46,651 bases of DNA from Acetobacteraceae bacterium. Lineage in GTDB: Bacteria > Pseudomonadota > Alphaproteobacteria > Acetobacterales > Acetobacteraceae. The notes beneath the pieces are model-generated. The model searched no databases, had not been told where the DNA came from, and saw only the letters and a list, made by a program, of their open reading frames with translations. Shown here one piece after another: positions 4,637 to 20,253 of the stretch; the stretch's first letter is position 1; each line of letters begins with the position of its first letter. The stretch spans positions 1 through 46,651 of the forward strand of contig DAHWFB010000056.1 in NCBI GenBank assembly GCA_027326105.1, read 5' to 3'. Both the position numbers and the translations under genes were made by a program.

Positions 4637-6178
4637 TCAGACCATCAGTTCGATGAGGAAGGGACCGGGGCGGCGGTTGGCGTGGTCGAGCAGTTCGGCG
4701 AAGCGCTCGAGCGTTGCCGCCCGCGCCGCCTCCACCCCCATGCCGCCGGCGAGACGGGGCCAGTCGAGCGCGGGATCGGCGAGATCCATCATCCCGTGCG
4801 CGGTCGGGCCCGGGATCGCGCCGACGCCGGCAAATTCCTTGAGCAGGATCGCGTATTTGCGGTTGGCGAGCAGGATGGTGGTGACGTCGAGCCGCTCGCG
4901 CGCCTGGGTCCACAGCGACTGGAGGGTGTACATCGCCGAACCGTCGCCCTGGAGCACGATGACCCGCCGCCCCGGCGCGCCGATCGCAGCCCCGGTGGCC
5001 AGTGGCAGGCCCTCGCCGATCGCGCCGCCGCAGAGTTGCAGCCAGTCGTGCGGCGCGGCGGCGGCGAGGGAGGCGAAGAGATCGCGCCCGTAGCTGATGC
5101 TCTCGTCCACCACGATGGCATCCTCGGGGAGCGCGCGGGCGAGGATCGCGGCGACGCCTTCGGGGCCGACCGCGCCGCGCACCGGGCCTTCGGGGAGCGG
5201 GCGCGGGGCGGCGGGCGGAGCGGCGGGGGCGCGCAGCGCCTCGGCGAGGCGGGCGAGCGCTTCCGGCCCGTCCTGCCCGATGCCGGCGAGCACATGGACC
5301 GCGCAGTCGGGCGGTTGCAGGCGGCCCGGCTTGCCGGGATAGGCGAAGAAGCCCACCGGCGGCGGGGCATTGACGGCGACGAGGTGGCGGGCGCCGGCGA
5401 AGGCCGCGAGCGCCGCGTCGATCGGATAGGGAACCCGCCCGATGGCCGGGCGCCCGCGCCCGCGCGGGATGCGCCCGACAAAGGTTTCGACCAGCGGCCG
5501 CGCCCCGGTGGCGGCACGGATGCGGGCGGCGGCGGCGAGACCGGCTTCGCCCGCCGCCGCGCCGCCGAGCAGGAGCACCGCGGGTTCGCCCGAACGCAGG
5601 GCACGGGCGGCTTCCGCGACCGCCGCGGCACTCGCCCGCGGCGTGGGCGGCGGCGGGTCCGGGGTGGCGGCGATGCCGCCCTCGCCCCAGGCGGTATCGG
5701 CGGGCAGGATCAGGGTCGCGACCTGCCCGGGCGGGGTGCGGGCGGCGGTGATGGCCGCCGCCGCGTCCGCGCCGACGCCCCCGGCGGAGGTGGCGGTGCG
5801 CACGAACCCGCCGACGCCGCGCGCCCAGCCTGCGGTATCGGCGGTCAGCGGCGGGTCGAGCGGGCGGTGGTACGTCGCCTGGTCACCGACGATGTTGACC
5901 ACCGGCGAGTGGGCGCGGCGGGCGTTGTGGAGGTTGGCGAGCGCGTTGGCGAGGCCCGGGCCGCAGTGGAACAGCGTCCCCGCCGGCTTGCCGGCGAGGC
6001 GCGCGTAGCCGTCCGCCGCCCCGCTCGCCACCCCTTCGAAGAGGGCGAGCACGCAGCGCAGGCCGGGGATGCGGTCGAGGGCTGCGACGAAGTGCATCTC
6101 CGACGTGCCCGGGTTGACGAAGCAGGTGTCGACGCCGCCGGCGAGCAGCGTATGGACCAGGCTTTCGGCGCCGTTCAT
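4637..6178 (-). CDS. ThDP-dependent enzyme of the acetolactate synthase-like (IlvX-like) family
   Basis: A 513-aa thiamine diphosphate enzyme with the usual three-domain layout. The Pyr domain contains catalytic-type Glu48 in LFEGVASGAADGYAR; the PP domain contains GDGSAMYTL followed by LLANRKY, the Mg/ThDP-binding GDG-N motif. It closely resembles, from memory, proteins annotated acetolactate synthase large subunit and mycobacterial IlvX, whose reaction is unproven; they lack the FAD-region length of true AHAS (about 570-600 aa). The ATG at 6178 follows a GGAGGGGGG ribosome binding site; a longer GTG start at 6208 is less likely. It sits between the alcohol oxidation genes and dut. Carboligation or 2-oxoacid decarboxylation is possible, but the substrate is unknown. 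Confidence 0.8.
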   Translation of the reverse strand: MNGAESLVHTLLAGGVDTCFVNPGTSEMHFVAALDRIPGLRCVLALFEGVASGAADGYARLAGKPAGTLFHCGPGLANALANLHNARRAHSPVVNIVGDQATYHRPLDPPLTADTAGWARGVGGFVRTATSAGGVGADAAAAITAARTPPGQVATLILPADTAWGEGGIAATPDPPPPTPRASAAAVAEAARALRSGEPAVLLLGGAAAGEAGLAAAARIRAATGARPLVETFVGRIPRGRGRPAIGRVPYPIDAALAAFAGARHLVAVNAPPPVGFFAYPGKPGRLQPPDCAVHVLAGIGQDGPEALARLAEALRAPAAPPAAPRPLPEGPVRGAVGPEGVAAILARALPEDAIVVDESISYGRDLFASLAAAAPHDWLQLCGGAIGEGLPLATGAAIGAPGRRVIVLQGDGSAMYTLQSLWTQARERLDVTTILLANRKYAILLKEFAGVGAIPGPTAHGMMDLADPALDWPRLAGGMGVEAARAATLERFAELLDHANRRPGPFLIELMV

Positions 6179-6277
6179 CCCCCCTCCCTTCCCCGACCGT
6201 GCGACCACCGGAGCGGACGCAGGATCGGGGCAGAAGGGGCGCGATGCAACCCCGCCGCGCGCCGCCCGCCGCCCGGT

Positions 6278-7438
6278 TCAGGGCACCCGGGAGACGAGCG
6301 GGGTGGTGGAGGCGGAGGCGGCCGCGAAACCGAGCCGGCGGGGACCGGCGGGGTAGCCGTTCTGGGCGAGGATGAAGGCCATCACGTCGGCGTACTGGCG
6401 GGGGGTGAGGCTGGCCGGGCGGCCGGCCGGCATCTGCCCGGCGAGGAAGGAGAAGATCGCGCCCACCGAATAGCCCATCGACGCGGAAGCGAAGCCCGGG
6501 CCCTTCAGCGTCGGCCCGACCAGGCCCTGGAGGTGGCCGCCGTGGCAGGCGGCGCAGTTCTGCGCGAACACGCGGCCGCCCGCCGCCGCCTGGGCGGTGG
6601 TGAAGAGGGCGGGAACCGCGGGCGCCGCGGGGGCGAGCCGGGGCAGGGCGAGCGGGGCGATCAGCCCGGAAAGATGCGCCTTCTCCTGCAGGGCGAGAAG
6701 TTTGGCGAGCCCGGCTGCGAAGCGCTCGCCGGCGGCGTGACCGGCGGCATCGTCGGCGGTGAGTGCGGCGATCACCCAGGCGGCGTGGGGCTGGTGCAGA
6801 AGCCGGGTCCGGAAGCGGAGCCCGTGGGCGCGGGCGAAGGCGGCGAGCGCGCGGTGGCGGGCGAGAAAGGCGAGATAGTCGGGCTGCCAGACGACCGCAC
6901 CCGCGACCTTGCCGGCCGCCAGCGCGGCCAGACTCTGCGCGTCCGAATCGAAGATATCGGCGGCGAGCGCGGGATGGCGGGCGGCGAACAGGCTCGACGG
7001 CGCGAGATAGGTGACGCCGAGGCGGAAACCCCTGGGCAGGGCCGCGAGCGGCGCCGGCGCGGTGCCGACGGTGACCAGGACGTAGCCGGTCTTGGCGTAG
7101 GCGGCGGCCAGCGTGAGCCCTTTCGGCACGCCGGTGCCCGGCGCCGGCAGCGGCACGCCCATCACCACGTCGCAGCGCGTGGCGAGCTTGCGCAGGAGCG
7201 GGCCGCGCACGCCCTTCTTGCCGGCGCGGGCGCTGCTGAAGGGGACCAGCGTGGCCGCGCTGCCCGCGGCCGCGGCGACCGCGCGGGCCACCTTCGCGTC
7301 GCGCCCGGCGAGCGGACTCGCCCGGTCGATGCAGAAGCGCATTCCCGGCGCGGCGGCGGAGGCGGGCTGCGTGAGCAGCCCGCCGGTGAACGCGAGGAGG
7401 GTGAGGGCCGCGGCCCTACTTGCCCAAGCCGAAGACAT
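6278..7438 (-). CDS. Quinoprotein-associated periplasmic binding-like domain fused to cytochrome c
   Basis: Exported 386-aa protein. A Sec signal peptide (about 1-30, ending ASAAA) leads into a region (about 31-260) resembling the MoxJ/XoxJ-type substrate-binding-like proteins that accompany PQQ dehydrogenases. A class I cytochrome c domain follows, with CAACH at 295-299 and probable Met336 axial ligand in GQMPAG. In known methanol oxidation clusters the J protein and the cytochrome (XoxG/MxaG) are separate genes; here they are one chain. It overlaps the upstream PQQ dehydrogenase gene by 23 nt, so coupled synthesis is likely. Inferred role: electron acceptor and maturation or docking partner of that dehydrogenase in the periplasm. 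Confidence 0.8.
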   Translation of the reverse strand: MSSAWASRAAALTLLAFTGGLLTQPASAAAPGMRFCIDRASPLAGRDAKVARAVAAAAGSAATLVPFSSARAGKKGVRGPLLRKLATRCDVVMGVPLPAPGTGVPKGLTLAAAYAKTGYVLVTVGTAPAPLAALPRGFRLGVTYLAPSSLFAARHPALAADIFDSDAQSLAALAAGKVAGAVVWQPDYLAFLARHRALAAFARAHGLRFRTRLLHQPHAAWVIAALTADDAAGHAAGERFAAGLAKLLALQEKAHLSGLIAPLALPRLAPAAPAVPALFTTAQAAAGGRVFAQNCAACHGGHLQGLVGPTLKGPGFASASMGYSVGAIFSFLAGQMPAGRPASLTPRQYADVMAFILAQNGYPAGPRRLGFAAASASTTPLVSRVP

Positions 7439-9137
7439 AGAGATGCCCTCCCCGGGGGATGTTCTTGATCGAAGGATCGTTCGCCATCACCCCGCCCCAG
7501 ATCGGCGAGGCGCCGCCCCAGCCCGCCCAGAGCGCGACATACTGCTTGCCCGCGATCTCGAACGTCGAGGGCTGGCTCACGATGCCGGAGGCGAGTTGCG
7601 GGCTCTCCCACAAGACCTTGCCGGTCTTGGCGTCGAAGGCCATCAGATGCCCGTCCGCGCGGCCGCTGAAGACCAGGCCGGACGCGGTGGTGAGCACGCC
7701 GGAATTCCACGGCGCCTTGGTCTGGTACTGCCAGACGCGCTTGCCGGTCGAGAGGTCGATCGCCTGCAGCGAACCCCAGCCCTTGGCGCCGGGCTGCGGC
7801 ACCACCTGGAAGCTCTCGCCCAGGAACGGCAGGCCGCGCAGATAGGAGACCGGCGCGCCCTTCATCGTCATGCAGGCGTGCAGCGTCGGCACGTAGGCCA
7901 TGCCGGTCGCGGGATCGACCGACATCGGCCACCAGTTCTTGCCGCCGAGGAAGCTCGGGCAGGTGAAGATGCCCTTGGTCAGCGTCGGGCGCACCGCGTC
8001 GTTGGTGAGCGTGCCGGCGGCGGCGGTGACCGATTTGATCGAGAGCGAGTGCACGAAGGGCCTGGCGTAGATCAGCTTCCCGGTGGTGCGGTCGATCGCG
8101 TAGAAATATCCGTTGCGGTCGGCGTGCACGATCGCCTTGTAGGCGTGGCCCTTCCAGGTCACGTCGGCGAGGATCGATTCATTGGTGCCGTCGTAGTCCC
8201 AGGTGTCGTGCGGGGTGAACTGGTAATACCACTTGAGCGCGCCGGTCGCGGGATCGAGCGCGAGCACGGAATCGGTATAGAGGTTCCTGCCCGGACGCAT
8301 CGTGGCGAGCCAGGGTCCCGGATTGCCGACGCCCCAGAAGAGGGTTTTCGTCGCCGGATCGTAGGTACCGGTGAGCCAGGCGCCGCCGCCGCCGTGCTTG
8401 TAGGCGCCCTTGGGCCAGGTGTCGCCGCCGGGCTGGTTCGGCGCCGGAATGGTGAAGCGCTTCCAGGAAATCGCGCCGGTTTTCGCGTCCAGCGCGGCGA
8501 TGAAGCCGCGCGCGCCGTATTCGCCGCCCGATTCGCCGACGATCACCTTGCCGTCCACGACCAGCGGCGCGACGGTGAGCGCGTAGCCCACGCCGGGGGG
8601 TTTCAGCGTGGTATCCCACACGATCTTGCCGGTGGTGGCCTGGAAGGCGAGGACGTGATTGTCGAGCGTCGCCATGTAGACCAGCGACCCGGCGACCGCG
8701 ACCCCGCGGTTGACCACGTCGCAGCACACCGTCTTGGTCGCGGTCGGCGGAAAGACGCGGTCGTATTTCCACAGCAGCTTGCCGGTGAGCGCGTCGAACG
8801 CGCGCAGATGGTCCATCGGCGTGGTGACGAACATGTAGCGGCCGTTGACGATGGGCGCCGCCTCGTAGCCGGGCTTGAGCCCGTCGTTGTAGCTCCAGAC
8901 CGTGGTGAGTTTCGCGACGTTGGCGGGATTGATGGCGGTGAACGGCGCGTAGGCCTGGCCGGAATAGTCGCGGCGGAACATCAGCCAGCCGGGATCGGAC
9001 TCCGCCTTGGCGAGACGGGCGGCGGTGACGGCGGGATAGGGCGGCATCGCCGCCGCGGCGGGAAGCGCGCTCGCGAGCAGCCCGCCGCCGGCCAGGGCGG
9101 CGGCGCGAATCGCGAGGGGGGAGCGGGAACGTTTCAC
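7416..9137 (-). CDS. PQQ-dependent alcohol dehydrogenase, predicted lanthanide type
   Basis: Periplasmic quinoprotein oxidising primary alcohols to aldehydes. The 573-aa precursor has a signal peptide (about 1-30, ending ALPAAAA) and an eight-bladed propeller with repeated tryptophan-docking motifs. Visible active-site features are the vicinal disulfide pair Cys138-Cys139 (TVCCDVVNRG), metal ligands Glu206 (GESGGEYGARG) and Asn272 (GVGNPGPW), and catalytic Asp314 in HDTWDYDGTNE. Asp316, two residues on, is the extra ligand that marks XoxF/ExaF/PedH-type lanthanide enzymes; calcium enzymes have Ala or Ser or similar there. There is no C-terminal haem domain, so it is not a quinohaemoprotein. 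The GTG start at 9137 has an AAGGAAGG site upstream; a longer frame exists without support. Confidence 0.92.
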   Translation of the reverse strand: MKRSRSPLAIRAAALAGGGLLASALPAAAAMPPYPAVTAARLAKAESDPGWLMFRRDYSGQAYAPFTAINPANVAKLTTVWSYNDGLKPGYEAAPIVNGRYMFVTTPMDHLRAFDALTGKLLWKYDRVFPPTATKTVCCDVVNRGVAVAGSLVYMATLDNHVLAFQATTGKIVWDTTLKPPGVGYALTVAPLVVDGKVIVGESGGEYGARGFIAALDAKTGAISWKRFTIPAPNQPGGDTWPKGAYKHGGGGAWLTGTYDPATKTLFWGVGNPGPWLATMRPGRNLYTDSVLALDPATGALKWYYQFTPHDTWDYDGTNESILADVTWKGHAYKAIVHADRNGYFYAIDRTTGKLIYARPFVHSLSIKSVTAAAGTLTNDAVRPTLTKGIFTCPSFLGGKNWWPMSVDPATGMAYVPTLHACMTMKGAPVSYLRGLPFLGESFQVVPQPGAKGWGSLQAIDLSTGKRVWQYQTKAPWNSGVLTTASGLVFSGRADGHLMAFDAKTGKVLWESPQLASGIVSQPSTFEIAGKQYVALWAGWGGASPIWGGVMANDPSIKNIPRGGHLYVFGLGK

Positions 9138-9195: not shown

Positions 9196-9579
9196 TCAGG
9201 CGCCGCCTGTCTGCGCGGCTTCGAGTGCCGCCGCTTCCGCGTCGGTGAACAGGCGCGAGCGGGTGAGGAAGCGCAGTCCGGTGGGACGCTCGAGGGAAAA
9301 CATCCCACCGTTCCCTGGCACCGCATCGATGATCAGCTGGGTGTGGCGCCAGTAGGCGAACTGCGAACCGCTCATGTAGAAGGGAACGCCGGCGATTTCG
9401 CCGAGCAGCACGTCGACGTCGCCGACCAGGAATTCGCCGGCCGGAAAACACATCGGCGCGCTGCCGTCGCAGCAGCCGCCGGACTGGTGGAACAGCAGCC
9501 CGCCGTGTTCGGCGGCGAGGCGCGCGATCAATGCGCACGCCGCCGCCGTCGCCACCACCCGCGCGGGCCGCTCCGCCAT
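9196..9579 (-). CDS. DUF779 family protein
   Basis: A 127-aa protein of the DUF779 family, recognised by the segment HQSGGCCDGSAPMCF and by its position beside an aldehyde dehydrogenase, its usual neighbour. Cys36, Cys37 and Cys44 form a compact cluster that could bind a metal or an Fe-S centre; no function is established that I know of. The ATG at 9579 has a strong GGAGGGGGG site. It lies 26 nt after the aldehyde dehydrogenase stop and 58 nt before the PQQ dehydrogenase, inside the sigma-54 operon. Confidence 0.85.
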   Translation of the reverse strand: MAERPARVVATAAACALIARLAAEHGGLLFHQSGGCCDGSAPMCFPAGEFLVGDVDVLLGEIAGVPFYMSGSQFAYWRHTQLIIDAVPGNGGMFSLERPTGLRFLTRSRLFTDAEAAALEAAQTGGA

Positions 9580-9605: not shown

Positions 9606-11156
<1,551 letters not shown>

Positions 11157-11218: not shown

Positions 11219-11234
11219 AGCAAAGTTCGTGCCA
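11219..11234 (-). promoter_or_regulatory. Sigma-54 (-24/-12) promoter of the alcohol oxidation operon
   Basis: Read on the minus strand the sequence is TGGCACG-AACT-TTGCT, an exact match to the RpoN consensus TGGCACG-N4-TTGCW, with the invariant GG and GC elements correctly spaced. It ends about 62 nt upstream of the aldehyde dehydrogenase ATG, leaving a leader of roughly 50 nt. The divergent gene is a sigma-54-dependent activator, which strongly supports function. Confidence 0.88.
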
Positions 11235-11441: not shown

Positions 11442-13391
<1,950 letters not shown>

Positions 13392-15037: not shown

Positions 15038-16834
15038 ATGGCAGCGGATGGCTCCTCCTCCTCGCCGCGGCGGCTGCGCAGCCGGCGCTGGTTCGACAAT
15101 CCGCACAACCCGGGGATGACCGCGCTCTATCTCGAGCGCTACCTCAACTACGGGCTGACCCGGGGGGAATTGCAGTCGGGCAAGCCGATCATCGGCATCG
15201 CCCAGACCGGCTCCGACCTCTCGCCCTGCAACCGCCACCATCTCGAGCTGGCCAGCCGGGTGCGCGACGGCATCCGCGAGGCCGGGGGCGTGCCGATCGA
15301 GTTTCCCGTCCATCCCATCCAGGAGACCGGCAAGCGGCCGACCGCCGCCCTCGACCGCAATCTCGCCTATCTCGGCCTGGTCGAGGTGCTGCACGGCTAC
15401 CCGCTCGACGGCGTGGTGCTGACCACCGGCTGCGACAAGACCACGCCGGCCTGCCTGATGGCCGCCGCCACCGTCAACCTCCCCGCCATCGTGCTCTCCG
15501 GCGGGCCGATGCTGGACGGGTGGTACCAGGGGCGGCTCGCCGGCTCGGGGACGATCGTCTGGGAGGGGCGCAAGCTGCTCGCCGAGGGCAGGATCAGCGC
15601 CGACGAGTTCATCGAGATGGTCTGTTCCTCGGCGCGCTCGCCCGGGCACTGCAACACCATGGGCACCGCGAGCTCGATGAATTCGCTGGCCGAGGCTTTG
15701 GGCATGTCGCTGCCCGGCTGCGCCATGATTCCCGCGCCCTACCGCGAGCGCGGCCAGATCGCCTACGAGACCGGGCGGCGGATCGTCGCCATGGTGGCCG
15801 AGGATCTCAAGCCCGCCGACGTGATGACCAGGGCGGCGTTCGAGAACGCGGTGGTGGTGGCCGCGGCCATCGGCGCCTCCTCCAACTGCCCGATCCACAT
15901 GGTCGCGATCGCCCGCCACATGGGGGTCGATCATTCGCTGGCCGACTGGCAGCGGCTGGGGCCGGAAATTCCCCTGCTCGCGGACGTGCAGCCGGTGGGC
16001 CGCTTCCTCGGCGAGGCCTTCCATCGCGGCGGCGGGGTGCCGGCGGTGATGAAGGAGCTGCTCGGCGCCGGGAAGCTGAACGGGGCGGCGATGACGGTGA
16101 CCGGGCGCACGGTGGCGGAAAACCTCGCCGCCGTCGGCGCGCCCGACCCCGAGGTCATCCGCCCCTACGCCACGCCCTTGAAGGAGCACGCGGGGTACGT
16201 GGTGATGGCGGGCAATCTGTTCGAGAGCGCAGTGATGAAGACCAGCGCCATCGACGAGGAGTTCCGCGCCCGCTTCCTCTCCGACCCGGCGCGGCCCAAC
16301 GTGTTCGAGGGGCGGGTCACCGTGTTCGAGGGGCCGGAGGACTATCACGCCCGCATCGAGGACCCCGGCCTCGGGATCGACGAGCGGACCGTGCTGGTGA
16401 TCCGCAACGCCGGCCCGGTGGGCTATCCGGGCAGCGCCGAGGTGGTGAACATGCAGCCGCCGGCGGCACTGCTCGCCAAGGGCATCAACGCCCTGCCGAC
16501 CATGGGGGACGGGCGGCAGTCGGGCACGTCCGGCAGCCCCTCCATCCTCAACGTCTCGCCCGAGGCGGCGGTGGGCGGCGGGCTCGCGCTGCTGCGCGAC
16601 GGCGACCCCATCCGCATCGATCTCAACCACTGCCGGGTCGATCTGCTGCTGCCCGAGGCCGAGATCGCCGCCCGCCGCGCCGCCTGGCGCCCGCCCGTGC
16701 TCGACAACAAGACGCCGTGGGAGGAGATCTACCGGGCGGGCGTGGGCCAACTCGGCACCGGGGCGTGCCTGGAGGCGGCGACCCTCTATCTCGACGTCAT
16801 CCGCACCCGCGGCGAATCGCGCGACAACCACTGA
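15038..16834 (+). CDS. IlvD/Edd family dehydratase, probable sugar-acid dehydratase
   Basis: Removes water from an aldonic acid to give a 2-keto-3-deoxy acid. The 598-aa protein carries the three Fe-S Cys positions of the family: Cys64 (DLSPCNRHH), Cys132 (TTGCDKTTPA) and Cys205 (PGHCNTMGTAS). The spacing and sequence match arabinonate/xylonate-type dehydratases, which bind a 2Fe-2S cluster, better than true IlvD. The Mg-binding and C-terminal segment GDGRQSGTSGSPSIL is intact. It is followed after 18 nt by an SDR resembling 2-keto-3-deoxy-L-fuconate dehydrogenase, which fits a non-phosphorylative sugar-acid route. The precise sugar acid is not determinable here. Confidence 0.88.
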   Translation: MAADGSSSSPRRLRSRRWFDNPHNPGMTALYLERYLNYGLTRGELQSGKPIIGIAQTGSDLSPCNRHHLELASRVRDGIREAGGVPIEFPVHPIQETGKRPTAALDRNLAYLGLVEVLHGYPLDGVVLTTGCDKTTPACLMAAATVNLPAIVLSGGPMLDGWYQGRLAGSGTIVWEGRKLLAEGRISADEFIEMVCSSARSPGHCNTMGTASSMNSLAEALGMSLPGCAMIPAPYRERGQIAYETGRRIVAMVAEDLKPADVMTRAAFENAVVVAAAIGASSNCPIHMVAIARHMGVDHSLADWQRLGPEIPLLADVQPVGRFLGEAFHRGGGVPAVMKELLGAGKLNGAAMTVTGRTVAENLAAVGAPDPEVIRPYATPLKEHAGYVVMAGNLFESAVMKTSAIDEEFRARFLSDPARPNVFEGRVTVFEGPEDYHARIEDPGLGIDERTVLVIRNAGPVGYPGSAEVVNMQPPAALLAKGINALPTMGDGRQSGTSGSPSILNVSPEAAVGGGLALLRDGDPIRIDLNHCRVDLLLPEAEIAARRAAWRPPVLDNKTPWEEIYRAGVGQLGTGACLEAATLYLDVIRTRGESRDNH

Positions 16835-16852
16835 AAGCAACTGAGAGGAACC

Positions 16853-17602
16853 ATGGCCGGACGACTCGCGGGCAAGCGCGCCTTTCTCACCGCCGCCGGC
16901 CAGGGCATCGGGCGGGCCACGGCGGAGGCCTTCGCCGCCGAGGGCGCGCGGGTGATCGCGACCGATCTCGACGCCGCCAAGCTCGCCACCCTGGCCGGGC
17001 CGGCGATCACCACCGCGGTGCTGGACGCGACCGATGCCGGGGCGATCGCGCGCGCGGCGGAGGCGGCGGGGCCGATCGACATCCTCTTCAACTGCGCGGG
17101 CTTCGTGCACCAGGGCACGATCCTCGACGCGCACGAGGAGGAGTTCGACTTCGCGATGACCCTGAACGTGCGCGCCATGTTCCGGCTGATCCGCGCCTTC
17201 CTGCCCGGAATGCTGGAGCGCGGGGCGGGCAACATCGTCAACATGGCCTCCGCCGCCGGCTCGATCAAAGGCGCGCCCAACCGCTGCCTGTACGGTACCA
17301 CGAAGGCCGCGGTGATCGGGCTGACCAAGGCGGTGGCAGCGGATTTCGTCACCCGGGGGATCCGCTGCAACGCCATCTGCCCGGGCACGGTGGAGACCCC
17401 GAGCCTCAACGAGCGGATGGCGGCGAACGCCGGCGCGGCGGGCGATCTCGCCGCGGTGCGGGCGGCCTATGTCGCCCGCCAGGCGATGGGCCGCTTCGCC
17501 GAACCCGCCGAGATCGCGGCGCTCGCCCTCTATCTCGCCTCCGAGGAGTCGCGCTTCGTCACCGGCCAGGCGATCGTCATCGACGGCGGCTGGACGCTGT
17601 AG
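16853..17602 (+). CDS. SDR oxidoreductase, 2-keto-3-deoxy-fuconate dehydrogenase/DHRS6-like
   Basis: A 249-aa NAD-dependent short-chain dehydrogenase: cofactor motif TAAGQGIGRA, NNAG-type motif FNCAG, catalytic Ser in MASAAGS, Tyr-Lys in LYGTTKAAVIGLTK, and the end VIDGGWTL. The stretch NRCLYGTTKAAVIGLTK followed by GIRCNAICPGTVETPSL is close, from memory, to DHRS6/BDH2 and bacterial 2-keto-3-deoxy-L-fuconate dehydrogenases. Placed directly behind a sugar-acid dehydratase, it probably oxidises the 2-keto-3-deoxy acid at C4. No aldolase or hydrolase for the next step is adjacent. Confidence 0.85.
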   Translation: MAGRLAGKRAFLTAAGQGIGRATAEAFAAEGARVIATDLDAAKLATLAGPAITTAVLDATDAGAIARAAEAAGPIDILFNCAGFVHQGTILDAHEEEFDFAMTLNVRAMFRLIRAFLPGMLERGAGNIVNMASAAGSIKGAPNRCLYGTTKAAVIGLTKAVAADFVTRGIRCNAICPGTVETPSLNERMAANAGAAGDLAAVRAAYVARQAMGRFAEPAEIAALALYLASEESRFVTGQAIVIDGGWTL

Positions 17603-17661: not shown

Positions 17662-18447
17662 ATGGGACGCTCCGGCTGCCGCTGGTGGGGATTGGCGCTC
17701 GGGCTCGGGCTAGGGCTCGCTCGGCCGGATGCGGCGCTCGCGGCGGGGGGATCGCGCTACACCGGCCAGGCGATCGTCACCGGCACCGACATGCGCGACC
17801 GGCCGCGCGGGCTCGCGCTCTGCCTCGCGCAGGCGCTGGTCAAGGCTTCGGGAGACCCCAACGTTCTCCGCCGGCCGGGCGTTCCCGCCCTGGAGGGGAA
17901 GGCGACCGCGTTCGTGGCCGGTCTCTCCTACGTCGATCGGATGAGCGGACAGCCGAAGCACGACGAGCAGGGCTCGCGCGACCGGCCGTTCACCCTCACC
18001 GCACGCTTCGACCCGGCGAAGATCGACGCGGCACTCGTGGGGCTCGGCGTCGCGCCCTGGCGGGGGCCGCGGCCGACCGTCGCGCTGGTCATCGCGGTGG
18101 CGGGCTTCGGGCATGCGTTCACCGTCACGCCGACCGAACCGCTGGCGGTGGACATGCGCGCGGCGCTCGTCGAGGAGCGGCGGCTCTATGACGTGCGCGT
18201 GGCGCTGCCCGCCGCCGCGGGAGCCACCCCGCGCGGGACCATCCTGGTGCGCGGGACGCTGCGCTGGGATCAGGCCCATTTCGGCTGGCGGGCGCGCTGG
18301 GCAAGCCTCTGGTACGGGCGGACGTATCGCTGGGGCGAGGACGGCGTGCCCTTCGATGACGCTTTCGGGGCCGCGCTCGCGGGCGCGCTGGGCCTTGCCG
18401 CCGGCCACGCGCCGCCACGGCCCGGCACGCCGTTGGTGCGCCGGTGA
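17662..18447 (+). CDS. DUF2066-like exported protein
   Basis: A 261-aa protein with an N-terminal signal sequence (GLALGLGLGLARPDAALAA) and a domain opening YTGQAIVTGTDMRDRPRG, with a conserved-looking block DEQGSRDRPFTLTARFDPAKID. This resembles DUF2066 proteins as I remember them; the assignment is tentative and no biochemical role is known. ATG 17662 follows GGGAAGG. Its stop overlaps the GTG start of the metallohydrolase gene by 3 nt, tying it to the quinoprotein relay cluster. It may be an accessory periplasmic factor. Confidence 0.6.
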   Translation: MGRSGCRWWGLALGLGLGLARPDAALAAGGSRYTGQAIVTGTDMRDRPRGLALCLAQALVKASGDPNVLRRPGVPALEGKATAFVAGLSYVDRMSGQPKHDEQGSRDRPFTLTARFDPAKIDAALVGLGVAPWRGPRPTVALVIAVAGFGHAFTVTPTEPLAVDMRAALVEERRLYDVRVALPAAAGATPRGTILVRGTLRWDQAHFGWRARWASLWYGRTYRWGEDGVPFDDAFGAALAGALGLAAGHAPPRPGTPLVRR

Positions 18448-19406
18448 CGGTGCCGCGGTTCGGCTGCTGTGGCTGCGGCCGGCGGGCGCTGATCGCCGCC
18501 GGAGCGGCCGGGCTGTTCGCCACCGGGGCGGCGGAGGCCGCGCCGGTGTTCACACTGCACGAGGTGGCGCCGGGGATCTTCGTCCGCCACGGGCTCTATC
18601 AGGACGCTAGCAAGCGGAATCTCGATTTCATCGCCAACACCGGCTTCATCGTCGGGGAACGGGCGGTCGCGGTGATCGACCCCGGCGGCAGCCTCCCGGA
18701 CGGGGAGCGTCTCTACGCGTCCTTGCGCGCCCGCACCCGGCTTCCGGTGCGCCATCTCATCCTCAGCCACCTCCACCCCGATCACTACTTCGGCGCCCAG
18801 CCGTTCCTGGCCGAGAAGCCGGAGGTGATCGCCCATTGGCGGATGCCGGACGCGATCGCCGAACAGGAGGCCTATTACCACACCCGCCTCGCGGAGGTGG
18901 TGGGCACGGCGGCGGCCGGTGGGCTGGTGCGGCCGACGCGGCTGGTGAAAGCGGTCGCCAGCGTCGATCTCGGCGGGCGGGTCCTCGATCTGACCGCCCA
19001 TCCGCGCGCCCATACCTTCACCGATCTGACCGTCTTCGACCGCGCCACCGCGACCCTCTGGATGGCGGATCTGCTGTTCGTGAAGCGGATCCCGGCGATC
19101 GATGGCAGCCTCACCGGCTGGCAGAAGACTCTGGCGGCGCTCGCCAAGGTGAAGGCGGCCCGGGCGGTGCCCGGGCACGGGCCGGTCGCGGTCGCCTGGC
19201 CGGCGGGGGCGGTGGACGAGGCGCGCTATTTCCGCGTGCTGCGCAGCGGGATCCTCAAGGTGCTGCACGACGGCGGGGATATCGAACAGGCGGTGGCGAG
19301 CGTGGGGCGGAGCGAGCGCGGCAGATGGCTGTTGTTCGACGCCTACAACGGGCGTAACGTGACCGCTTCGTTCAAGGAACTCGAATGGGCGGCGACGCCG
19401 GGCTGA
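18444..19406 (+). CDS. Quinoprotein relay system zinc metallohydrolase (SoxH-like)
   Basis: Periplasmic metallo-beta-lactamase-fold hydrolase of 320 aa. An unusual Cys-rich, twin-Arg N-terminus (GCCGCGRRALIAAGAAG) suggests export, perhaps by Tat. The zinc site is H109-x-H111-x-D113-H114 in SHLHPDHYFGA, with later ligands in HPRAHTFTD, MADLLF and VPGHGP. The family is known from neighbourhood analysis to travel with quinoprotein dehydrogenases and SoxYZ-like carriers, and may act on the carrier-bound group. The GTG start at 18444 overlaps the preceding stop (GTGA), and the SoxYZ-like gene follows after 25 nt. Confidence 0.85.
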   Translation: MTVPRFGCCGCGRRALIAAGAAGLFATGAAEAAPVFTLHEVAPGIFVRHGLYQDASKRNLDFIANTGFIVGERAVAVIDPGGSLPDGERLYASLRARTRLPVRHLILSHLHPDHYFGAQPFLAEKPEVIAHWRMPDAIAEQEAYYHTRLAEVVGTAAAGGLVRPTRLVKAVASVDLGGRVLDLTAHPRAHTFTDLTVFDRATATLWMADLLFVKRIPAIDGSLTGWQKTLAALAKVKAARAVPGHGPVAVAWPAGAVDEARYFRVLRSGILKVLHDGGDIEQAVASVGRSERGRWLLFDAYNGRNVTASFKELEWAATPG

Positions 19407-19431: not shown

Positions 19432-20253
19432 ATGGCACTGCCGCTGACCGGCCGGCGCGGCGTTTCGCTGGCACTGGGCGCGGGGCTGGCGACGCTCGGG
19501 GCTGGTCCGGCCTTCGCAATCGCCGACAAGGCGATGCGCGAGGCGCGCTGGAAGGCGCTCGACGCGCTGCTGTTCGGCAAGACCGCGCTGCGCGACGGCG
19601 CCGGGATGCTCACGCTCGACGCTCCCTTCCGCGCGCAGGACGCGGCGCTGGTGCCGATGGGGCTCACCGTCGCGCCAGCGGCGGCACCCTCGGTGCTGAT
19701 GCTGGTGATCGATCTCAACCCTTCGCCGGTCGCGGCCAAGGTTGCCTACGGGCCGGCAGGGGATCCGCATCTTTTCCGCGCCCGGGTGCGCGTGAACGAC
19801 TATACCTGGGTGCACGCGGTCGCGGAGACCGCGGACGGGATTTTCCTGGTGCGCAAATATGTCCGGGCGGCGGGCGGCTGCTCGGCACCCTCGGTGGGTG
19901 ACCCCGCGACCGCGAGCCGCGACATCGGGCAGATGAAGCTGCGCCTGGCGAGAGCGCCGCTGGCGAACGGGGCGCGCGAGGCGACACTGCTGATCCGCCA
20001 TCCCAACAACAACGGGATGCAGATGGACCAGCTGACCCACTACATCATCCCCCCCCGCTTCATCACCACCATCGCCGTCCACCTGGGCGGCGAGCGGGTC
20101 TTCGCCATGGAGACCGGCATCTCGCTCGCCGAGGACCCCGCCATCACCTTCGCCTTCCACCCGCGCCGGGGAGCGGCGCTGGAGGCGGTGGTGCACGACA
20201 CCAGCGGCGCCGTGTTCCGCAAGCGGTTCGCGCTCCCGTCCCTGGCGAGCTGA
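19432..20253 (+). CDS. Quinoprotein dehydrogenase-associated SoxYZ-like carrier protein
   Basis: A 273-aa exported fusion: a SoxY-like domain (about 30-150), ending in the carrier-type motif AAGGC with Cys150, then a SoxZ-like domain (about 165-270: MKLRLARAPLANG, HYIIPPRFI). In SoxY the corresponding GGCGG Cys carries a sulfur intermediate, so Cys150 is probably the carrying residue. The signal region TGRRGVSLALGAGLATLG contains a twin-Arg, hinting at Tat export in a pre-folded form. Together with the upstream metallohydrolase it makes a quinoprotein relay pair. The likely client is the PQQ dehydrogenase at 7416-9137. Function of the relay remains hypothetical. Confidence 0.85.
   Translation: MALPLTGRRGVSLALGAGLATLGAGPAFAIADKAMREARWKALDALLFGKTALRDGAGMLTLDAPFRAQDAALVPMGLTVAPAAAPSVLMLVIDLNPSPVAAKVAYGPAGDPHLFRARVRVNDYTWVHAVAETADGIFLVRKYVRAAGGCSAPSVGDPATASRDIGQMKLRLARAPLANGAREATLLIRHPNNNGMQMDQLTHYIIPPRFITTIAVHLGGERVFAMETGISLAEDPAITFAFHPRRGAALEAVVHDTSGAVFRKRFALPSLAS

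Follow-up and report, generated by a model that had tools for sequence, protein, structure and literature searches.

We identified in the genome of an Acetobacteraceae bacterium a putatively periplasmic, PQQ-dependent alcohol dehydrogenase (ADH) that is most likely lanthanide-dependent, belongs to an uncharacterised clade and would work in an operon switched by sigma-54, a reading that we hold with considerable confidence from the sequence. The whole stretch of DNA analysed, 46.6 kb long, is referred to here as the window, and the dehydrogenase gene and its metal-site codons lie in it as follows.

7416..9137, minus strand: PQQ-dependent ADH of 573 aa, with a GTG start, a signal peptide and a D-x-D metal site (TIGR03075, residue alignment, AlphaFold2/Foldseek).
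8190..8198, minus strand: codons of D314-Y315-D316, the catalytic Asp and the extra Asp (predicted lanthanide ligand), in TPHDTWDYDGTNE aligned with PedH/XoxF versus ExaA/MxaF; coordinates computed from the start at 9137.

The initial annotation gave no strand for this gene. Its coding strand is the minus strand, on which 7416-9137 is translated into 573 aa without interruption, including the signal peptide, and the ribosome-binding-like AAGGAAGGAA lies 5' of the GTG start. A profile search placed the ADH in the PQQ methanol/ethanol dehydrogenase family (NCBIfam TIGR03075, 573.8 bits against a cut-off of 480.05). The AlphaFold2 model (pLDDT 90) found its best Foldseek match in PedH with a TM of 0.90, while XoxF2 and ExaA matched less well by E-value, and PedH was the top PDB match by sequence as well.

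The metal-site segment of the ADH is TPHDTWDYDGTNE and contains W313-D314-Y315-D316; the WDYDG motif with Asp314 and Asp316 had thus been numbered correctly. In the alignment to the sequences of solved enzymes, the D316 column holds Asp in the lanthanide enzymes PedH (6zcw, WDFDG, segment TPHDGWDFDGVNE), XoxF2 (4mae, WDYDG, segment TPWDSWDYDGVNE) and XoxF5 (6oc5, WDFDG, segment TPHDEWDFDGINE; 6dam, WDYDG, segment TPHDEWDYDGINE), whereas Ser stands there in ExaA 1flg (WDFSG), Ala in MxaF 4tqo/9ism (WDYAG) and Thr in the quinohemoprotein ADH 1kv9 (WDFTA). The comparison had been set beforehand as a refuting test of the claim that Asp316 is the extra carboxylate of lanthanide enzymes; the columns agree and the claim stands. 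E206, N272 and the vicinal pair C138-C139, which the initial annotation had called intact, are present in the ADH together with R341. Moreover, D314 and D316 were carried by every one of the diverse relatives in a 39-sequence alignment (39/39), indicating that the D316 motif is not a product of chance.

The earlier suggestion that this motif sets the enzyme apart did not hold. D-x-D was found in nearly all of the 80 loci in our own sample, and in an ocean survey, 14 of 17 PQQ-dehydrogenase families had it in most or all of their members (PMC11996626). As the majority state in the family, the motif supports lanthanide use and gives the enzyme no novelty by itself. The same survey takes it as a sign of at least facultative lanthanide dependence and states that, outside methanol dehydrogenases, lanthanide use is biochemically confirmed for type 2b (ExaF/PedH) only (PMC11996626); Ca-dependent PedE and lanthanide-dependent PedH show the Ser/Asp difference (PMC5487730). 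It is unlikely, in our estimate, that the ADH is Ca2+-dependent or metal-promiscuous and that its extra Asp is tolerated rather than required. Metal motifs can indeed be mixed within a family, since type 6a of Methylobacterium aquaticum includes Adh6 with Ala and Adh4 with Asp, and the Ca-type PedE retained 60-80% activity in 10 mM lanthanides (PMC10409515), but D-x-D is kept across the whole clade of the ADH and its distant relatives, and the other metal-site residues of the clade agree with PedH/XoxF. We consider the lanthanide dependence of the ADH well predicted by these residues.

A genome scan recovered 20 relatives of the ADH with 56-66% identity, the next ones down being at 43%. Relatives were carried by 13 genomes of the source's own family (57-63% identity) and by two Burkholderiaceae plasmids (59.8 and 58.3%). 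Phylogenetic tree analysis joined these relatives and the window ADH in one clade of 28 rows with 100/100 support, apart from XoxF/MxaF, ExaA/PedH (type 2b), quinohemoprotein ADHs and type 6a, and D-x-D occurs in every clade member with a readable metal-site segment. Of the Keltjens types from 6 onwards, the tree covered type 6a, represented by the plasmid-borne Adh4 and Adh6 of M. aquaticum 22A, with type assignments from PMC7356819; the clade may correspond to type 6b (which includes the chromosomal ExaF of M. aquaticum 22A), 7, 8 or 9 or to a later type. For PedH, the trees used a sequence transcribed from printed alignments, which lacks two residues of the range given there; its metal-site segment is unaffected. 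Among characterised enzymes, PedH is the closest to the ADH (42.9% identity), followed by ExaA (41.4%), and we found no characterised or assayed member of the clade itself. Membership of three known groups was considered and rejected: the ADH falls outside the XoxF/MxaF group on 100/100 branches, PedH of type 2b groups with ExaA and three further loci (L124, L125 and L130) separately from the window clade (100/100), and Adh4 and Adh6 of type 6a form separate 100/100 clades from it. On the plasmid that encodes the latter two, pMaq22A_1p (L148, L149), Adh4 reads WDWD and Adh6 WDWA, although both are assigned to type 6a, a type described as putatively lanthanide-containing.

The clade gene is patchy in its distribution. 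At E<=1e-140 it was detected in 13 of 200 sampled family genomes besides the window's own (a tally of 14 includes the latter), and in a class-level sample of 385 genomes it was found in the window's own genome only. Cultured bacteria in the clade are Acidocella, Mangrovitalea and Caballeronia, and one genome of the family (G212) has exactly the same gene as Acidocella facilis. A different genome of the family encodes a protein closely related to the membrane ADH of Gluconobacter oxydans (8gy2). These two links point indirectly to Acetobacteraceae, in the GTDB sense, as the probable family.

The tree also bears on the initial impression that the clade does not look like XoxF, which it confirmed by placing the ADH outside both XoxF and ExaF/PedH (100/100). 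A divergent XoxF methanol dehydrogenase would share D-x-D, the vicinal Cys pair and neighbouring J-like and G-like proteins with the ADH, which is 34-39% identical to XoxF. Yet this reading is highly improbable given the 100/100 separation from the XoxF/MxaF group, the ExaC aldehyde dehydrogenase next to the ADH, and GGKNWWP at residues 398-404, which resembles ExaA/PedH, NWxP being absent from the XoxF/MxaF references. In addition, the same genome, which is 82% complete, encodes a separate XoxF5 (916 bits to XoxF 6oc5), after which come a cytochrome of the methanol-metabolism type, scoring under the cut-off of its family, and a XoxJ-type protein (TIGR03871, 249 bits, over the cut-off). The genes pqqB, pqqC and pqqE are present as well, and together with the XoxF5 locus they make PQQ production and lanthanide use elsewhere in the cell plausible. 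The genome encodes yet another quinoprotein, its third (L145 8275-9927, minus strand), which has D-x-D (NDTHDWDAS), no vicinal Cys pair, GDKAGN replacing ADRNGY and a long tree branch, and is followed by a cytochrome c protein (L145 7056-8267, minus strand).

The uncharacterised ADH lies in a conserved cassette with its own candidate regulator.

6278..7438, minus strand: 386-aa periplasmic protein with an N-terminal type-2 periplasmic-binding (XoxJ/PedG-like) domain and a C-terminal cytochrome c, predicted electron acceptor/helper of the ADH (PF13442 at 282-356; weak TIGR03871; Foldseek; profile hits).
9196..9579, minus strand: DUF779 protein of 127 aa between the aldehyde dehydrogenase and the ADH (PF05610, 156 bits); same position in several clade loci.
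9606..11156, minus strand: ExaC-type acetaldehyde dehydrogenase (NF050026, 938.5 bits, cut-off 900); start taken as the ATG at 11156.
11442..13391, plus strand: divergent sigma-54-dependent activator with GAF, AAA+ Sigma54_activat and Fis-type HTH domains (PF00158, 216 bits; PF01590; PF02954).
18444..19406, plus strand: quinoprotein relay system zinc metallohydrolase 2, SoxH-like (TIGR04559, 352.7 bits, cut-off 280).
19432..20253, plus strand: quinoprotein dehydrogenase-associated SoxYZ-like carrier (TIGR04557, 218.2 bits, cut-off 140).

On the minus strand the order is ExaC-type aldehyde dehydrogenase, DUF779, ADH and the binding-domain/cytochrome c fusion. The N-terminal 250 residues of this 386-aa fusion resemble a type-2 periplasmic binding domain. 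TIGR03871 matched weakly over 45-194 (E=0.0038, 16.9 bits, below the cut-off of 212.15), Foldseek with a low-confidence model (pLDDT 67) retrieved periplasmic binding proteins including XoxJ 6onp (E=4.8e-6), and profile matches were to amino-acid binding proteins and periplasmic binding proteins. The domain thus resembles XoxJ in its modelled fold only and stays below the TIGR03871 cut-off. Every clade locus whose contig extends beyond the ADH has a cytochrome next to it. In roughly two-thirds of these loci the binding domain is fused to the cytochrome or lies beside it, and in the rest it is absent; in the Acidocella loci binding domain and cytochrome are separate genes. Regulators 41-55% identical to the window activator were found near many clade ADHs. 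The distance from the ADH to the SoxH and SoxYZ genes is about 9-11 kb; relay genes of this type occur in the ped cluster and near xoxFGJ (PMC12997753), while the relay rhodanese-like family TIGR03865 had no match in the 82%-complete genome. The DNA that separates the activator from the SoxH/SoxYZ genes (window 15038-17602) encodes an SDR and an enzyme of the dihydroxy-acid dehydratase family (NF009560, 1018 bits). The gene immediately following that of the cytochrome, at 4637-6208, encodes a TPP enzyme (NF005760, by annotation an acetolactate synthase large subunit); this enzyme and the downstream ABC transporter, dUTPase and DapB genes showed no conservation with the cassette in relatives. 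On a Caballeronia plasmid, an annotated pqqA (L120 9333-9407) is located just upstream of a clade ADH.

A candidate promoter for the operon was found in the divergent gap between the aldehyde dehydrogenase and the activator.

11219..11234, minus strand: predicted sigma-54 (-24/-12) promoter TGGCACGAACTTTGCT, an 11/11 consensus match, 63 bp upstream of the aldehyde dehydrogenase start.

This is the sole 11/11 sigma-54 site in the window. Of the 34 strong sites (score of at least 10) in 35 clade loci, 29 precede the start of an ADH or aldehyde dehydrogenase gene by no more than 300 bp; the stretches so defined account for about 4% of the 373 kb scanned. In this count L143 and L023 stand for one gene, whose site at the ADH start is doubtful, as is the one located 242 bp ahead of the L016 aldehyde dehydrogenase. 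Sixty other loci used as a control gave 7 strong sites in 796 kb. With wider flanks, three Acetobacteraceae loci (L151, L154, L163) showed sites ahead of the aldehyde dehydrogenase and the other ten showed none, which indicates that sigma-54 control is common but not universal. At the sequence level, the operon has both hallmarks of sigma-54 control, a predicted -24/-12 promoter and a PF00158 regulator. The promoter suggests that alcohol sensing rather than metal may be the main switch, and our literature search found no paper joining sigma-54 with lanthanide PQQ-ADHs.

The candidate regulation also counts against an ortholog of ExaF/PedH (type 2b), because P. putida PedH is controlled by PedS2/PedR2 (PMC6115532). 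PedH is the nearest characterised enzyme at 42.9% identity and the gene content near the ADH is ped-like, but PedH and its kin group with the Ca-type ExaA (100/100), apart from the 28-row clade (100/100), and we regard orthology as very unlikely.

The DNA itself shows the metal-site motif, the clade placement, the order of the genes, their domains and the match to the promoter consensus, whereas metal, substrate, electron path and regulation of the probably lanthanide-dependent ADH are inferred. E206, N272, D314 and the extra carboxylate of D316 would bind Ln3+, which would activate PQQ, with D314 as the putative catalytic base. The enzyme would oxidise a short-chain, ethanol-like alcohol to the aldehyde in the periplasm, a substrate suggested by the ExaC neighbour and the likeness to PedH/ExaA. 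The cytochrome domain of the neighbouring fusion protein would take up the electrons from the ADH, and the binding-protein domain of the same fusion may assist in loading PQQ or metal, a role proposed for XoxJ. The ExaC-type aldehyde dehydrogenase would convert the aldehyde to the acid. The GAF-type activator would sense alcohol, aldehyde or a related signal and turn on the operon through RNA polymerase-sigma-54 at the -24/-12 promoter.

Lanthanide use outside methanol dehydrogenases has been proven biochemically for one branch only, ExaF/PedH, and the ADH clade would be a second, well-conserved one. Because cultured bacteria carry it, the reliability of D-x-D as a sign of lanthanide dependence can be tested directly, and the suggestion that alcohol sensing is the main switch can be tested in a laboratory strain. 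More tentatively, at slightly less than even confidence, we propose a distinct clade of lanthanide ADHs in Acetobacteraceae and other Proteobacteria with a patchy cassette, a sigma-54 activator instead of the known lanthanide-switch two-component systems, and an electron acceptor and maturation helper often combined in one fused protein.

Compared with known systems, the ADH is a credible new branch of a known kind, and what the present analysis adds is a separate clade, so far uncharacterised, and a conserved cassette that is probably driven by sigma-54. With the lanthanide-dependent type 2b enzymes PedH (Pseudomonas putida KT2440) and ExaF it shares D-x-D, the E/N ligands, the vicinal Cys pair, the GxKNWxP segment and nearby SoxYZ and SoxH genes. 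It differs from PedH, at 42.9% identity, in its clade, in a fused binding protein-cytochrome where PedG and PedF are separate, and in its sigma-54 activator and promoter. XoxF5 and XoxF2 share the lanthanide ligand Asp, the other metal ligands and the neighbouring J-type binding protein and cytochrome, but they are 34-39% identical and form a separate tree group, and the genome's XoxF5 has its own locus. Type 6a (Adh4 and Adh6 of M. aquaticum 22A) likewise consists of non-XoxF PQQ-ADHs, 39-42% identical to the ADH; these form a separate clade, lack the vicinal Cys pair and have a mixed metal motif (WDWD, WDWA). The Ca-dependent ethanol dehydrogenases ExaA/PedE share the exaABC-like logic of ADH, cytochrome c and ExaC aldehyde dehydrogenase, whereas their metal site has Ser in place of the Asp of the ADH (41.4% identity). 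In Methylacidiphilum XoxGJ, a XoxG-type cytochrome is fused with a XoxJ-type binding protein as the partner of a lanthanide dehydrogenase (PMC8498564); that fusion serves XoxF, while the binding domain of the fusion described here is N-terminal and weakly related to XoxJ in sequence.
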